DNA from: Bacteroidales bacterium
GTDB lineage: Bacteria > Bacteroidota > Bacteroidia > Bacteroidales > P3
Assembly (NCBI GenBank): GCA_009785425.1
Contig: WQWI01000005.1
Location: 1-64,000, forward strand
Length of the DNA stretch: 64,000 bases
Direction of reading: 5' to 3'
The translations under genes and the position numbers were made by a program. The notes below the pieces were generated by a model. That model searched no databases and had not been told where the DNA came from. It saw only the letters and a list, made by a program, of their open reading frames with translations. Below are positions 22,007 through 60,110 of the stretch, in pieces. Position 1 is the stretch's first letter. Each line of letters opens with the position of its first letter.

Positions 22007-22034
22007 GTAGGGGCAAATAATTATTTGCCCCTAT
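22007..22034. repeat. Intergenic 28-bp palindrome, GTAGGGGC family
   Basis: TAGGGGCAAATAA and its exact reverse complement form a perfect 26-bp palindrome between pruA and rpsT. The same sequence with one mismatch is inside the BspA-like gene at 35564-35591. Confidence 0.85.
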
Positions 22035-30738: not shown

Positions 30739-32097
30739 ATGGCAAAAACATTAACCGAAAAATTGTGCAAAAACGACTGGAAATACACTTTGAGTCGTTT
30801 ATTCTTGACAACCCCGAATCACAAACGATATTATCGGCATACCCATGTCATTGGCAAGGAAAACATCCCTTCGGAAGGACCGTTGATTTACGCGGCAAAT
30901 CATCAAAATGCACTTATGGACGCTATGGCGATTGTGACCACTCAAAAGCATCAGACTATTTTCGTTGCGCGTGCCGATATTTTCAGAAAACCGTTCATCA
31001 TAAAGATCTTGCATTTTATGCGAATTTTGCCGATTTATCGCAAACTTGACGGCGGGAAAAACCAAGACAATTATGACAACAATCAAGAAACATTTGAAAT
31101 TGTTGATCATATTCTTCGTGCAGGAAGGGTTCATGGCATTATGCCCGAAGGACGATTCAATCCGTATAAACGTTTGGCTCCGCTCCAAAAAGGAATTTTT
31201 CGAATAGCCCTGAAAGCACAAGAGTTTTTCGGAACAGAGGGAGGCATAAAAATTGTTCCGATCGGAATCAGTTGGCAAGACCGAAAAGAATTTTTTAAAG
31301 ATGTAACAATCGTTTACGGAAAACCGATTCCGGTTGCGGAGTTTTTTCCGCTTTATCAAGAAAGTCCTGCGAAAGCCTACTTGAAAATGCAGGAAAAACT
31401 ATCTGCGGAAATTAGCAAATTGATGATCGATATTCGTAGTGAAACGCACTACAAAACCATCGAAAACATTCGCGAAACATTTGGTTATGAATACACAAAA
31501 GCAACCAGTCGCAATCCGAATAATCCGAAAGAACGCTTGGAAGCTGAACAAAATTTAGTGAGAAAATTAGATGAATTTTCCGAAAAAAATGATCCGAAAA
31601 TACAGACCTTAGAACAAACATTTCCCAAGTATAAAGAGGGTTTGGACAAACTGAAAATTCGTTCGTGGTTGTTGCGAAAAAAGAAAGTTGCTTGGTATGA
31701 ATTTCTGAAAGATTGGGCTATTTTATTGCTTGGATTTCCGATTGCTGTAATCGGTGCAATTCTTGGATTTTTACCGTTGAGATTGATGAGAAAATATGAA
31801 AAACTGATCAAAGATCAGCAGTTTTTGAGTTCGACAAAATATGTTGTATCCATGATGGTTCGGAGCTTGCAGAATTTAATCCTGATAATCATTGCATGTT
31901 TTGTTGCTCCTAATTTCGCAATGCTTGGATTGATGCTTGCATTGATTTGGTTTGCCGAACGAATGATGTTATTTTATGTTGAACATTACAAACGCACAGT
32001 TGGAAAGTTCAGATATTGCAGGCGTTTGACAAAAAAATGTCATTTGCTGAGTGAATTGAAAGAGCAGAGGGAGCAAATGATAGCTATATTTTCATAA
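30739..32097 (+). CDS. 1-acyl-sn-glycerol-3-phosphate acyltransferase family protein
   Basis: 452 aa. The PlsC signature is present: NHQNALMDAM (HX4D with Asp, the His/Asp pair) and MPEGRFNPYKRL. Two hydrophobic stretches (WAILLLGFPIAVIGAILGFLP and a second about residues 370-420) suggest membrane anchoring in the C-terminal half. Likely moves an acyl chain onto a glycerolipid or related lipid; the larger size than PlsC leaves the exact acceptor open. porZ follows closely. Confidence 0.85.
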   Translation: MAKTLTEKLCKNDWKYTLSRLFLTTPNHKRYYRHTHVIGKENIPSEGPLIYAANHQNALMDAMAIVTTQKHQTIFVARADIFRKPFIIKILHFMRILPIYRKLDGGKNQDNYDNNQETFEIVDHILRAGRVHGIMPEGRFNPYKRLAPLQKGIFRIALKAQEFFGTEGGIKIVPIGISWQDRKEFFKDVTIVYGKPIPVAEFFPLYQESPAKAYLKMQEKLSAEISKLMIDIRSETHYKTIENIRETFGYEYTKATSRNPNNPKERLEAEQNLVRKLDEFSEKNDPKIQTLEQTFPKYKEGLDKLKIRSWLLRKKKVAWYEFLKDWAILLLGFPIAVIGAILGFLPLRLMRKYEKLIKDQQFLSSTKYVVSMMVRSLQNLILIIIACFVAPNFAMLGLMLALIWFAERMMLFYVEHYKRTVGKFRYCRRLTKKCHLLSELKEQREQMIAIFS

Positions 32098-32105
32098 TTT
32101 TTTCG

Positions 32106-32114
32106 TATCTTTGC
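32106..32114 (+). promoter_or_regulatory. porZ promoter -7 box
   Basis: TATCTTTGC ends 8 nt before the chosen ATG at 32123. Confidence 0.6.
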
Positions 32115-32122
32115 GAATCGCA

Positions 32123-34480
32123 ATGAATGGTTTGAAAAATATCTTTTGGTTTGTTCTCTGGCTTTGTCCTCTGCTCGTTTTCTCTCAACGAAGCGGGGTA
32201 GGACGGTGGCAAGATCATTATTCCTACAATAATGTTTTGTCTATTGTCGTTTTGCGAAATGAAATTAGCGGTGTAACTGAAAACGGTTTATTTTTTTTCA
32301 ACCCAAGAGAAAACAGCATTCGGCGGAAAACTACAGTACAAGGGCTGAGTGGCGTTGGAATTACGGCCTCTGCCTATGACCCTTCAACGCGGATTCAAAT
32401 AGTAGGTTATGAAGACGGCAACATTGATTTGGTTCTTCAAAATGGTAGAGTTGTCAATATCCCTGACTTGCAACGCTGGCAGACGCCGGGAAGCAAAAGA
32501 ATCAATAAAATCGTTATCGAAAATAGCCAAAGAGTCTTTCTTTGCACTGATTTCGGCATTGTTGTAGTGAACTTGAACAGGCGAGAAATTTCAGAAACAT
32601 ATTTTATCGGAGAAAATAATTCGCATTTGCAAGTCAGAGATATTGCATTTAGTAACGATTCGATTTTTGCTGCAACGGAAAACGGTTTGAAGAGAGCATA
32701 TCGGCGTTCTCGGCGATTGAGTAATTTTCGAGAATGGGAGCAAGTTCTCGTTAATTCACAGATTGAGCGACCGATAGAAAGTGTGTCTACTTGGAATGAT
32801 AATTTGATTGTTCATCAACGCTCAACTCGAAACGATCAAGCTTACGACACTATTTGGCGGCGTGACTCCGAAAACGAATGGCATATATTGGATACAATTT
32901 CCACAAGTAAGATCAAAGTCAGCAATAATCGCCTGTTTCAACTTCGAAGAAAACCAGATGTGGACTATCTTCGTGAAATTCGTGAATTTAATTCCGATTT
33001 TCAAATTTTACGCAGGTTTGGCAGTAATTCGCAGGAACCGGATTTGTGGGGATTAGTGGATTTTGAAGTGGATGTAGAAAATAATTTGTGGCTTTCAACA
33101 GGTTTTAATGGATTAACACGGCTTACTCCAAATTGGATGTTTGTTGGTGATATTTTGCCACGAGGACCGGCGAGTAACAATGTTTATTCATTGACTCACA
33201 GTTTGACGACATTATATTCTGCAAATGGTAACGTCAATGCAGGTGATTGGTCGCCGGGTTGGCGAACTTTTGCGGTGGATTTTTTTAGAAATGGAAATTG
33301 GGAACTCTTGGAAAGTCGTCATCTTCCGGGTGGGTGGGTTGCAGATGCGGTTGCTGTTGCAGAAAATCCGAGCAATCCCAATGTTTTTGTTGTTGCATCG
33401 TGGCATGCAGGTGTAGTGCAGCGTAATGCAGACAGAAGCGTTACAATTTTCGACAGTACAAATAGCACTTTAAAACCTTTTTGGGACGGTTGGCAGTACA
33501 TCACTCGTATCGGAGATGTAAATTTTGACAGAAGAAATCAACTTTGGGCAACTATGACAAGAGGTGAACATCATTTGCACAGGCGGGCAGTTTCAGGAGA
33601 ATGGACAGCCTTTGATCTGGGGCATCTTATCCCGGCAAATCCTACGTCAGATGCAAAAGAGTTTATTGTTGATTATCACAATCAACTTTGGATTCGAACC
33701 CGATGGGGCGGGTTGGTGTTTTTCAGAGAGTATAATAACAGTGCAGGTTTTCAGGCGTTGCGAGCAAACTTAACTCGTGGAAACGACCAGCAAATCACGG
33801 TTATCAATACTTTAGTAGAAGACCGAAGAGGTTATGTTTGGCTGGGTACTGACAGAGGAATTTTGGTTAATTACACATCAAGGCAATTGTTTAATAATCC
33901 TGTCGGTTTGGAGTCAACCGTAGAGTTTAGAACCGTCAATTATGCGGGGCGTCCATTGCTCGAAAATGAGAATGTAACGGCAATTGCAGTTGACGGAGCG
34001 GATCGAAAATGGTTTGGAACATCGTCGAGTGGCGTGTTTCTAATGTCTGCCGATGGAAGAGAAATGCTTAGACATTACACCGCACAGAACAGTCCGCTAA
34101 ATTCCAACACAATCACGGCTTTGGCGATAAATCCAAGAACAGGAACCGTGTACATTGGAACCGACAGAGGTTTGATGTCGTACGGTGGAGATGCAACTGT
34201 TGGAAATAGGACCGAGCAAAACATTGTGGTTATACCAAATCCTGTTCGTGCTGATTTCACAGGGGAAATCTCGATTCAGGGTTTGGTTGAAAATGCACAT
34301 GTTCGCATTACGGATGTGAGTGGCGTTTTGGTTTTTGAGACTACAGCAAGAGGCGGAATGGCAACTTGGAATGGTAAGACCCGGAACGGTCAGCGTGTAA
34401 GACCCGGTGTTTATTTAGTGTTTGCAACCAACGATGATGGTTCTGTCGGCTCTGTCGGTAGGATTTTCTTTAGCAGATAA
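32123..34480 (+). CDS. porZ: T9SS protein PorZ-like, beta-propeller
   Basis: 785 aa. Signal peptide, then GRWQDHYSYNNVLSIV and repeated propeller blades of the two-component-regulator type (WLGTDRGILVNY, WFGTSSSGVFLM, YIGTDRGLMSY), ending in a T9SS C-terminal sorting-like domain (IPNPVRADFTG, GVYLVFATNDDG). The N-terminal pattern, length and recO neighbour match PorZ, the surface subunit of the T9SS attachment complex. The ATG at 32123 follows the promoter by 8 nt. An ordinary propeller-type T9SS cargo is the alternative. Confidence 0.75.
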   Translation: MNGLKNIFWFVLWLCPLLVFSQRSGVGRWQDHYSYNNVLSIVVLRNEISGVTENGLFFFNPRENSIRRKTTVQGLSGVGITASAYDPSTRIQIVGYEDGNIDLVLQNGRVVNIPDLQRWQTPGSKRINKIVIENSQRVFLCTDFGIVVVNLNRREISETYFIGENNSHLQVRDIAFSNDSIFAATENGLKRAYRRSRRLSNFREWEQVLVNSQIERPIESVSTWNDNLIVHQRSTRNDQAYDTIWRRDSENEWHILDTISTSKIKVSNNRLFQLRRKPDVDYLREIREFNSDFQILRRFGSNSQEPDLWGLVDFEVDVENNLWLSTGFNGLTRLTPNWMFVGDILPRGPASNNVYSLTHSLTTLYSANGNVNAGDWSPGWRTFAVDFFRNGNWELLESRHLPGGWVADAVAVAENPSNPNVFVVASWHAGVVQRNADRSVTIFDSTNSTLKPFWDGWQYITRIGDVNFDRRNQLWATMTRGEHHLHRRAVSGEWTAFDLGHLIPANPTSDAKEFIVDYHNQLWIRTRWGGLVFFREYNNSAGFQALRANLTRGNDQQITVINTLVEDRRGYVWLGTDRGILVNYTSRQLFNNPVGLESTVEFRTVNYAGRPLLENENVTAIAVDGADRKWFGTSSSGVFLMSADGREMLRHYTAQNSPLNSNTITALAINPRTGTVYIGTDRGLMSYGGDATVGNRTEQNIVVIPNPVRADFTGEISIQGLVENAHVRITDVSGVLVFETTARGGMATWNGKTRNGQRVRPGVYLVFATNDDGSVGSVGRIFFSR

Positions 34481-34483
34481 ATC

Positions 34484-35050
34484 ATGTATATTCGAACACG
34501 CGGAATAGTTCTGAGCCATTTGAAATACGGCGAAACAAGTCTTATTGTTCGTGTTTTTACTGAACATTCCGGCTTGCAATCGTTCATCATAAAAGGATTT
34601 CGCTCGTCTAAAAATAAAGGAAAAATCTCGCTTTTTCAACCGCTATCTTTAATCGAAATAGATTTGCCCGAGCACAGCAAATCCGAACTTCTGAATTTCA
34701 AAGATGCACGTGCGTTGTATCACTATTCAAGCATCTCAAATACGATTGAAAAACACAGTATTTTTGTATTTCTTTCGGAAGTTTTGAGTAAAATTTTGTG
34801 TTTTTCGCAAGCCGAGGATGAATTGTTTGAATTTGTTTACAACTCGCTCATCTCGCTCGACAACATAAGGGAACCTTGCAATAATTTTCATTTGATTTTT
34901 TTGAATGATCTGACGAACTATTTGGGCATTCGCCCGATAGAAAACCAATCGCTAGGCAACCTGCATTCTATCTTAGAGTACTACGGGCAACACGTACCGA
35001 ATTTTTTGCCGATAAAATCTCATGTTATTCTGCGCGAAGTGTTACGGTAA
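34484..35050 (+). CDS. recO: DNA repair protein RecO, shortened
   Basis: 188 aa, 3 nt after porZ. The N-terminal OB-fold (GIVLSHLKYGETSLIVRVFTEHSGLQSFIIKG) is clear. Bacteroidota RecO is usually about 240 aa; here the chain jumps from NYLGIRPIENQSL to the C-terminal helix HSILEYYGQHVPNFLPIKSHVILREVL, so roughly 40-50 residues of the middle/C-terminal part seem missing. It may be a compact active form or a deletion allele. Confidence 0.85.
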   Translation: MYIRTRGIVLSHLKYGETSLIVRVFTEHSGLQSFIIKGFRSSKNKGKISLFQPLSLIEIDLPEHSKSELLNFKDARALYHYSSISNTIEKHSIFVFLSEVLSKILCFSQAEDELFEFVYNSLISLDNIREPCNNFHLIFLNDLTNYLGIRPIENQSLGNLHSILEYYGQHVPNFLPIKSHVILREVLR

Positions 35051-35051
35051 A

Positions 35052-35071
35052 TAGGGCAACCGCATCAAAAT
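35052..35071. repeat. 20-nt repeat, inverted copy at 37168-37187
   Basis: TAGGGCAACCGCATC then AAAAT, starting just after the recO stop. 19 of 20 positions match the reverse complement of 37168-37187, so the two copies bracket the BspA-like gene. A partial copy (CGCATCAAAATAA) is at 46875-46887. Confidence 0.7.
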
Positions 35072-35087
35072 TGTCCTATTGTTTTAT

Positions 35088-35292
35088 TGCCCATCGGGCA
35101 TATATATCAATAGAAAACCGTTATCCAACATCACGTGTAGCCCGTAGGGCTTTCACATCTATTCAATTTTCAACAGCAAAAGCATAATGAGTGCAGATAT
35201 TGTATTTGACATTTTTTTGATGTGAAACACCTACGGTGTTTTAGGGTTTGGTGACACATTGTTTTCTATTGATATTGTTGCCCTACGGGCAA
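35088..35292. repeat. 205-nt symmetric multi-hairpin element
   Basis: Nested inverted repeats in mirror order: TGCCC-ATC-GGGCA (35088-35100), ATATCAATAGAAAAC (35104-35118), AGCCC-GTA-GGGCT (35139-35151), TTTCACATC (35151-35159), then GATGTGAAA (35219-35227), ACACC-TAC-GGTGT (35227-35239), GTTTTCTATTGATAT (35261-35275) and TTGCCC-TAC-GGGCAA (35278-35292). No open frame spans it. It could be a MITE-like element or a structured RNA. Confidence 0.75.
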
Positions 35293-35309
35293 GGTTTTTT
35301 TGCAAAAAT

Positions 35310-35335
35310 AAGGGCGTTGCACACAACGCCCCTAC
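35310..35335. repeat. GGGCGTTG...CAACGCCCCTAC palindrome
   Basis: 26-nt palindrome of the GTAGGGGCG family close to the end of the BspA-like gene. It may double as a terminator hairpin, although the T run is missing. Confidence 0.7.
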
Positions 35336-35357: not shown

Positions 35358-36800
35358 TTACTGCTTCACAATCCTTATCGACTGTTCGCCGATACGCAGA
35401 ATATACACACCATTTGGCAAATGCCCTAACCAAATTGTTTGGGTTGTGCTTGTTATTTGTTGCGTGTGAACGAAACTTCCGTTTGCGTTTAGCACATATA
35501 GCATCGCACCGATTTCGGCGTTGGTGATGTGGATTTGGTCTGTGAATGGATTGGGGTGTACCTGTAGGGGTAAATAATTATTTGCCCCTACATCGACGAT
35601 TGATGTAGGGTCTGCCGTAACTGTAATGTTAAAATCCTGCGTAAAATCCGTTGTTGCTGTTGCTCCGTTTGCAATTGTAGCACGAACGGTAACTGTTCCC
35701 GCCGATGTTGTGTTGAGCGTATTGCCGTTGATTGTTGCACCTGTTGTGCCTGCATCTTGAACGCTCCACACGATGGTTTGATTTATTGCATCGCTCGGAT
35801 TTACGGTGCCGGTTAGTGTGAGTGGTGTGCCTGCTGTTGCGGTTGTTGGCACGTTTGTGATATTGGCTACTGCGACAAATATTGCCTCAACGCACGAAAA
35901 AACTTGCCAACCATCAGCAGTTCTATAAGCCGAAATCGAGGCTTCGGGCACATGCAAACAAGCCGTAGCCGGTAAACCTGAAAAAGCATTACCATCTATC
36001 GTCGGCGGTATAGTGCGATGTACCGTTATTGACGATAGATTAATATTATTTGCAAACGCCACCTGTCCGATTGTTGTTACGCCTGTGCCAATGGTTACAG
36101 AGGTTAACGCTGGATTATCTGCAAACGCCACCTGTCCAATTGAAGTTACATTGTCAGGAATAATTATTGAGGTTAAGCCTGTGTTTTGAAACGCACCGTT
36201 TTCGATTGTTGTTACGCCTGTGCCAAGGGTTACAGAAGTTAACGCTGGATTACGTGCAAACGCCATTTGCCCAATTGAAGTTACATTGTCAGGAATAATT
36301 ATTGAGGTTAAGCCTGTGCTGATAAACGCAGAATTTTCAATTCTTGTTACGCCTGTGCCAATGGTTGCAGAAGTTAACGCTCCATTACCTCCAAACGCCC
36401 CACCTCCAATTGAAGTTACATTGTCAGGAATAATTATTGAGGTTAAGCCTGTGTTCCAAAACACATTATCTCTGATTGTTGTTACGTTTGTGCCAATGGT
36501 TACGGAAGTTAGCCCGGTTAATCCCACAAACGCTCGAATTCCGATTGAAGTTACTCGTTCCTCTATAACTACAGCAGAGAACAAATCTCGATTTTCGACT
36601 GTTCCCCACGGTGCGTCAGTAACTCCACCTGGGCTACTAAAATTAACCATTGTTGCAGTGTTGGTTGCGTGAGTTACTCTAATTCGGAGTGTGTCGTCAG
36701 CGATAGTCCAAGTTAGGTCTCCGGAAGTGCCGGAGGTTTGTGCGAAACCTGCAAGGCTTGTTGCGAGGATTAGGGCGAGGGATAAAAGTGGTTTTTTCAT
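35358..36800 (-). CDS. BspA-type leucine-rich-repeat surface protein, T9SS cargo
   Basis: 480 aa from the Met at 36800. Signal peptide (KKPLLSLALILATSLAGFAQ), then LRR_5/BspA-like repeats (residues about 75-275) including three nearly identical 45-residue units at 118-252. A bacterial Ig-like domain follows (about 335-410, LTGTVNPSDAINQTIVWSV). The C-terminal T9SS sorting domain is HPNPFTDQIHI...NGVYILRIGEQSIRIVKQ. Between the Ig and sorting domains, residues VGANNYLPLQ come from an in-frame palindromic repeat. BspA-like proteins often mediate adhesion; that role is inferred. Confidence 0.85.
   Translation of the reverse strand: MKKPLLSLALILATSLAGFAQTSGTSGDLTWTIADDTLRIRVTHATNTATMVNFSSPGGVTDAPWGTVENRDLFSAVVIEERVTSIGIRAFVGLTGLTSVTIGTNVTTIRDNVFWNTGLTSIIIPDNVTSIGGGAFGGNGALTSATIGTGVTRIENSAFISTGLTSIIIPDNVTSIGQMAFARNPALTSVTLGTGVTTIENGAFQNTGLTSIIIPDNVTSIGQVAFADNPALTSVTIGTGVTTIGQVAFANNINLSSITVHRTIPPTIDGNAFSGLPATACLHVPEASISAYRTADGWQVFSCVEAIFVAVANITNVPTTATAGTPLTLTGTVNPSDAINQTIVWSVQDAGTTGATINGNTLNTTSAGTVTVRATIANGATATTDFTQDFNITVTADPTSIVDVGANNYLPLQVHPNPFTDQIHITNAEIGAMLYVLNANGSFVHTQQITSTTQTIWLGHLPNGVYILRIGEQSIRIVKQ
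35563..35592. repeat. In-frame 30-nt palindrome in the BspA-like gene
   Basis: TGTAGGGGTAAATAA followed by TTATTTGCCCCTACA; one mismatch from a perfect palindrome. Encodes VGANNYLPLQ on the minus strand. The intergenic twin is at 22007-22034. Confidence 0.85.
36045..36449. repeat. Three tandem 135-nt units in the BspA-like gene
   Basis: Each unit encodes GLTSIIIPDNVTSIG plus 30 further residues; units are nearly identical in DNA as well as protein, so copy number may vary by recombination. Confidence 0.8.
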
Positions 36801-36854
36801 AATGATTGTATGTTTATTTGTTTGTTTGCTTATTGGGTTATTCGCACAAAAAAA

Positions 36855-36891
36855 CACATCGGGCGTTTCGACAGGCTCAACGTCCGATGTG
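36855..36891. repeat. Hairpin of the TTCGACAGGCTCA family upstream of the BspA-like gene
   Basis: Arms CACATCGG / CCGATGTG plus CGTT / AACG enclose TTCGACAGGCTCA. It would lie in the 5' leader if the BspA-like gene is transcribed from 37088-37096. Confidence 0.7.
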
Positions 36892-37167
36892 CGGAATTTA
36901 TCATATTGCAAAAAAAATCTATCTTTGCAATTTGGTTTTTTCTAAAACTAAATAATGCGGGTGGGTGGGAGTTTAGGAGGTGTGTGTGTGTGTGTGTTTA
37001 CACAAATATCCGAGAAAAGCAAGTTTTTTCGGCAAAAGTTTTGAGTATTTTTTAACACATTTAACATTGGGTTACACATAAAGATTTGCAAAGATACGAA
37101 ATTTTTTCGAAATATCAAACGTAGGTCTACCCGCCCCTACAATTAGAAATGTGTATTTTTATCAATT

Positions 37168-37187
37168 ATTTTGATGCGGCTGCCCTA
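37168..37187. repeat. Inverted partner of the 35052-35071 repeat
   Basis: ATTTTGATGCGGCTGCCCTA, reverse complement of 35052-35071 with one mismatch. Confidence 0.7.
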
Positions 37188-37310
37188 ACGGTAAACGTGA
37201 AACCCGTACCAATATAGCATCAAGACAGGGTTTTTTGTGCGAAACCTTAAATTTTTTTAAGGTTTAACACTTTTTAAGGATTTTTTTGCGATTTGTGTTT
37301 GTTTTTTGCA

Positions 37311-60082: not shown

Positions 60083-60110
60083 ATAGGGGCGACATACATG
60101 TCGCCCCTAC
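60083..60110. repeat. 28-bp TAGGGGCGACAT palindrome
   Basis: TAGGGGCGACAT and ATGTCGCCCCTA around AC, between the FISUMP lipoprotein and BSP genes. GTAGGGGC family. Confidence 0.85.

Follow-up and report, generated by a model that had tools for sequence, protein, structure and literature searches.

Elements of the IS200/IS605 family such as IS608 and ISDra2 are single-gene elements of about 600 bp that carry a Y1 transposase and subterminal hairpins, and they are described as devoid of terminal inverted repeats (PMC7290912). For TnpA-Y1 subclass 1.2, which is found in Bacteroidetes and Cyanobacteria, no REP is listed and the terminal structures typical of IS200 are generally absent (Quentin et al. 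2018, PMC6006769). PATEs, from Haloquadratum and Halanaerobium, are short, consist only of palindromic ends of IS200/IS605 type and are presumably moved in trans (PMC7290912). REPINs and BIMEs, with the REPtrons of RAYTs, combine inverted hairpin pairs next to a Y1 transposase with non-autonomous copies (PMC3116915), and in TIRtrons (TIRYT) a Y1 gene lies between terminal inverted repeats, some of them self-complementary (Di Nocera et al. 2013, PMC3733652).

Here we describe a 206-nt element in a stretch of 64,000 nt of a Bacteroidales genome, called the window below. Its full-length parents have the gene content, size and subterminal hairpins of IS200/IS605 elements but differ from them in their clear mirror-image ends. 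With subclass 1.2 they share a Y1/HuH protein of about 150 aa with the motifs Y...Q..HH, WQ and D/N-H-u-H, a low copy number and the occurrence in Bacteroidetes, whereas the mirrored double hairpins, the TAGAA box and the non-autonomous derivatives are absent from the published description. Like a PATE, the element is short with palindromic ends; unlike in PATEs, the deletion can be traced to its exact repeats, a parent is seen at an orthologous site, and the ends are mirror-symmetric. REPINs and BIMEs differ in their GTAG foot and in their class of transposase, and they lack the gene remnant found inside the present element. TIRtron proteins belong mostly to subclass 2.1, with a helix-turn-helix tail and GGGGWSAS, whereas those found here are short class 1 proteins. 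The element is ordinary in kind; what is new is that members of subclass 1.2 have conserved mirror-symmetric ends and that the birth of a miniature is visible.

Anatomy of the element

The element lies between two convergent genes, recO (plus strand, ending at 35050) and a gene for an LRR/secreted protein (minus strand, 35358-36911, ending at 35358), both named from the original prediction and from translations read by eye. That prediction had reported four hairpins with 3-nt loops and two inverted repeats of 15 and 9 bp in mirror order, all of which can be read directly in the DNA. Of its limits, 35088-35292, the right one holds and the true start lies 1 nt further out, at 35087. The features are as follows.

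35087-35292, no strand assigned: very probable MITE-like, non-autonomous form of a Y1-transposase element with an internal deletion, 206 nt, based on genome copies and alignment to full-length parents
35051-35086, plus strand: extra flanking segment with a hairpin, AATAGGGCAA to TTGTCCTATT, found elsewhere only at the C6 copy and built around a 21-nt core that is a small repeat in its own right
35087-35100, plus strand: outer left end hairpin TTGCCC-ATC-GGGCA, with core GCCC-ATC-GGGC at 35089-35099, conserved in 7 aligned ends
35104-35118, plus strand: left terminal box ATATCAATAGAAAAC (TAGAA box), with 8 exact genome matches; anchors a hairpin at fixed offset
35139-35151, plus strand: inner left hairpin AGCCC-GTA-GGGCT, with core GCCC-GTA-GGGC at 35140-35150 and covariation
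35159-35167, plus strand: deletion junction in a 9-nt near-repeat, CTATTCAAT, where the alignment places about 393 nt of missing parent sequence
35159-35212, minus strand: decayed, frameshifted 5' end of the transposase gene, where the parent reads M-S-N-T-Y-T-Q-I-Y-I-H-Y-V-F-A-V-Q-N-R
35225-35241, plus strand: inner right hairpin AAACACC-TAC-GGTGTTT, three pairs of which show double compensatory changes
35261-35275, minus strand: right terminal box GTTTTCTATTGATAT, with exact genome matches of the terminal motif
35278-35292, plus strand: outer right end hairpin TTGCCC-TAC-GGGCAA, directly followed by a T-run, a terminator-like site for recO

Both inverted repeats are perfect: ATATCAATAGAAAAC (35104-35118) pairs with GTTTTCTATTGATAT (35261-35275) over 15 bp and TTTCACATC (35151-35159) with GATGTGAAA (35219-35227) over 9 bp. 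Combined with the hairpins, they make up a 32-nt terminal inverted repeat (84%) and an inner one of 18 nt (89%). This order had been thought unlikely to arise by chance, and folding the sequence bears this out, with z = -6.9 for RNA and z = -5.7 for single-stranded DNA and not one of 200 shuffles as stable in either case. The further claim that no ordinary terminator is present holds only in part, since a terminator-like hairpin with a T-run (35278-35302) forms the right edge; the structures themselves are transposon ends.

Copies of the element and the full-length parent

The genome of the window (G000; 71% complete, 1.63 Mb, 49 contigs) holds three deleted copies on three contigs, namely the window copy (206 bp, 100%), C6:9158-9372 (216 bp, 92%) and C16:31696-31905 (211 bp, 89%). 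All three are diverged and one junction is common to them all. The recommended genome search for the terminal motif, ATATCAATAGAAA, gave eight mismatch-free matches, which form four inverted pairs: those of the three short copies and that of an element on contig C8. There, partial matches at C8:59685-59759 and C8:60160-60303 lie on either side of a Y1_Tnp gene (C8:59864-60208). This is the one full-length copy seen in the 71% of the genome that is represented, and its ends share only about 74-87% identity with the window copy. Among the options that the original prediction had offered, these copies single out the MITE. Used alone as a copy finder, GCCCNNNGGGC was rejected as unspecific (13 matches against 7 in the control).

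Full-length elements of 615-624 bp were found on C8, on G001:C6 and G001:C3 of a congener, and on G010:C157. In these, the transposase gene sits between two inner hairpins; beyond them lie ATATCAATAGAAA on the left and TTTCTATTGATAT on the right, and an outer hairpin forms each end. Alignment to three of them shows a single deletion: positions 1-81 of the window element correspond to parent positions 1-81, and positions 67/73-206 to parent positions 468/474-617. About 393 bp, two thirds of the length, were lost, and the remaining parts are joined within a 9-nt near-repeat, CTATYCRAT, of which the transposase gene has one copy at its end and another near its start. It follows from this alignment that the window element carries in its middle, on the minus strand, the first ~20 codons of the transposase in decayed form. 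As the three short copies have one junction, the deletion was probably a single event whose product then multiplied. Both parental ends are thus kept without the transposase, in three copies dispersed over three contigs, and we are highly confident that the window element is a MITE-like miniature of a ~617-bp Y1/HuH (IS200-type) transposase element. The small number of deleted copies and the divergence of all of them indicate that activity is not recent.

A longer unit, from 35051 to about 35306 and including a flanking hairpin at 35050-35080, is common to the window and C6 copies, which thus have extra flanks of 36 nt (35051-35086) and, at the opposite end, of about 14 nt in common. One of these two copies may therefore stem from a flank-inclusive duplication and not from exact transposition. 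A 21-nt repeat, ATAGGGCAACCGCATCAAAAT, occurs in the window at 35051-35071 and 37168-37188 and also at G000:C10:45280 and C9:67745; up to 3 mismatches it was found in seven places, against 0 in the control. We also noted a promoter-like motif of the TAnnTTTG type, AATAATTCYRYACCTTTG, which has 14 genome matches, with sites at C8:59637, C8:60319, C6:9130, C16:31681 and C16:31942 of G000. Three of the four element copies have it no further than about 50 nt away; with so few copies, this is at most a hint that the element may insert near promoters.

A full-length element at the orthologous site of a sister species

In G001, the full-length element at C6:63690-64307, with an intact gene, sits at the site orthologous to that of the deleted C16 copy. 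The flanks are colinear: on one side they match at ~79% over about 180 bp, together with a part of the element, and on the other at 89-90% over 960 + 2700 bp (about 3.6 kb). This colinearity identifies a single site, occupied by a 617-bp element with its gene intact in the sister species and by a 211-bp deleted form in G000. The birth of a miniature transposon can therefore be followed in one case, with the full and the deleted element at one site in sister species and the deletion repeats visible. Beside the deleted element, 1.1 kb (G000:C16 ~31908-33013), with a gene for a RhuM-like protein as judged by eye, is absent from the G001 site.

IS200/IS605 elements are expected to insert 3' of a fixed tetra- or pentanucleotide and to cause no duplication. 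At recO, none of the congeners was seen to carry the element, and no clean empty site was found. The genes downstream of recO differ among the congeners, so that neither the insertion point nor a target sequence or target duplication can be read there.

The transposase belongs with IS200-type Y1 proteins

The parent protein has 153 aa and matches Pfam Y1_Tnp PF01797 with 97.6 bits (E 7e-28). It scores 74.8 bits against the NCBIfam IS200/IS605 model NF033573, over the cut-off of 55, and 26.9 bits against the REP-associated model NF047646, under the cut-off of 80. Its sequence similarity to solved IS200/IS605 transposases is weak. The catalytic HuH and the tyrosine are invariant in five aligned proteins, as in a Y1 transposase of the IS200/IS605 family. 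A search with an HMM gave 115 genes of relatives, with lengths mostly of 150-153 aa; 103 of the 111 readable motifs have Y...Q..HH. Compared with the published signature motifs rather than with the authors' HMM, the transposase fits TnpA-Y1 subclass 1.2 (Y...Q..HH, WQ, D-H-[IV]-H, ~148 aa).

Mirrored ends are conserved across Bacteroidota

We counted end hairpins (loop of 3-4 nt, at least 5 bp, within 150 nt of the gene) at the loci with full flanks, with controls taken 700 nt away. Of the 111 loci, 74% had such hairpins flanking the gene left and right; the figures were 0% for 1110 dinucleotide shuffles and 2% for the 95 controls. Some loci were entered twice (e.g. L008 and L135), which puts the independent count slightly below 111. 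Record titles assign the loci to Bacteroidales, Flavobacteriaceae, Cytophagales, Balneolales, Saprospiraceae and Chitinophagaceae. Upstream loops in the 111 loci read GTA or GTTA and downstream ones TAC or TAAC, and so mirror each other. The layout of hairpin, TAGAA box and inner hairpin recurs, mirrored on both sides, across Bacteroidota. In a scan anchored on TAGAA and blind to hairpins, 77 of 117 ends had a hairpin at a single offset (loop start at -18 or -19), while every other offset was represented at most 4 times. The left arm is shifted between ends with 3-nt and 4-nt loops.

The pairing itself is conserved. In the class with 3-nt loops, stem pair 4 is T-A in 20 ends, G-C in 7 and C-G in 6, and stem pair 5 is T-A in 16, G-C in 13 and A-T in 2. 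Double-change cells numbered 32 against 12.5 expected (0/500 shuffles), a count whose weight lies on the outer pairs, as the ends were preselected for stems of at least 3 pairs. Compensatory changes also occur in the inner hairpins among near copies of the window element. The original prediction had named a unique copy with unconserved pairing as the observation that would speak against it; the element is multicopy and its pairing is maintained by such changes.

These elements therefore combine the subterminal hairpins at both ends that are expected of IS200/IS605 with ends that mirror each other, and the parent is best described as an IS200-type element with aberrant ends, not as a textbook IS200. 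For these members, the conserved ends contradict the published account of subclass 1.2, whose lack of REP and, generally, of typical IS200 ends is a descriptive and not a protein-defining trait. We found no published account of these ends in the open-access literature, most subscription papers lying outside the search. Subclass 1.2 HuH transposases, thought to be without recognisable ends, thereby gain a defined DNA substrate that is found throughout the phylum and lends itself to in vitro tests. The symmetry of the ends is a puzzle for a single-strand, strand-specific transposition.

Alternative explanations and proposed mechanism

Short hairpins in inverted pairs with polar GTA/TAC loops would also be expected of a REPIN or BIME, in which REP hairpins are spread by a RAYT as inverted pairs and do not derive from a whole transposon, and at least nine gene-less copies of joined right and left ends in G010 point the same way. 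Here, however, a remnant of the transposase lies in the middle, and a single deletion suffices to align both halves with one full-length element. The tetranucleotide GT[AG]G that marks the 5' foot of REP hairpins is missing, GTA lying in the loop instead; the transposase motif is Y...Q and not the Y...NP of class 2 RAYTs, and the protein falls on the IS200 side of the two model cut-offs (26.9 against 80 bits for the REP-associated model). We thus regard a REPIN origin as very unlikely. Less likely still is a structured non-coding RNA or bidirectional terminator with a regulatory role between recO and its convergent neighbour. The very stable fold, the hairpin with T-run at 35278-35302 and the convergent intergenic position would suit it, but the structure is not conserved at recO in the congeners, and copies at unrelated places led us to reject a single structured RNA. 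The Rfam search of the window gave a tRNA as its sole match and no RNA family over the gathering score at the element, so that the structured-RNA option is not needed: transposon ends account for the structures. A side effect as a terminator is compatible with the miniature transposon. Other short palindromes do occur in the genome and in the window, but a chance palindrome in repeat-rich intergenic sequence has a negligible probability given the shuffles, the multiple copies and the homologous ends found throughout the phylum.

With the miniature transposon as the preferred explanation, we propose the following scheme. The parent ends consist of an outer hairpin with a 3-4 nt loop, a TAGAA box about 15 nt inside and an inner hairpin by the gene, the right end mirroring the left. 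Slippage or recombination between the two 9-nt near-repeats in the transposase gene took out about 393 bp; what remains, as the alignment shows, is the two ends and ~20 decayed codons. The deleted form then gave rise to the copies seen at three sites. By analogy with its Y1 class, the enzyme would act on single-stranded DNA and recognise the outer hairpin, with nearby bases as a guide. An element that had lost its gene but kept both ends could then be mobilised by an enzyme encoded elsewhere, and the miniature was most likely moved or copied in this way, in trans, by a Y1 transposase to which its ends were recognisable as folded single strands. At its present place the window element is probably inert, save as a transcription stop between convergent genes.

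More tentatively, and with rather less than even confidence, we suggest that the subclass 1.2 elements of Bacteroidota may form a distinct type of transposon, defined by mirrored double-hairpin ends and a TAGAA box, whose ends spread as whole elements, as miniatures and as joined right-left pairs (those of G010, possibly captured circle junctions). If true, IS200 elements and REPINs would be connected through their mechanism.

Other repeats and transposase groups

In G010, a genome of the same family, joined ends with no transposase gene between them occur at C176:1489-1649, at C43:7112-7264 and in at least 7 more places (L177-L185), in the order right end, AAATA, left end. They may represent REPIN-like units or, alternatively, captured circle junctions.

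Seventeen nt to the right of the window element lies a palindrome, AAGGGCGTTGCACACAACGCCCCTAC (35309-35334), that is GTAG-tagged on the minus strand. The window also contains three 'double-foot' REP-like palindromes of the form GTAGGGG(Y)...(R)CCCCTAC, at 22007-22034, 35564-35591 and 60083-60110, with 0 expected by chance; the one at 35564 is in frame inside the LRR gene, just before the C-terminal region. A second Y1 group in G000, represented by L009 (C11), L010 (C33) and L015 (C40), has 2-3 hairpins per side with GAA/TTC-type loops and a spacer resembling ATCAATAG.
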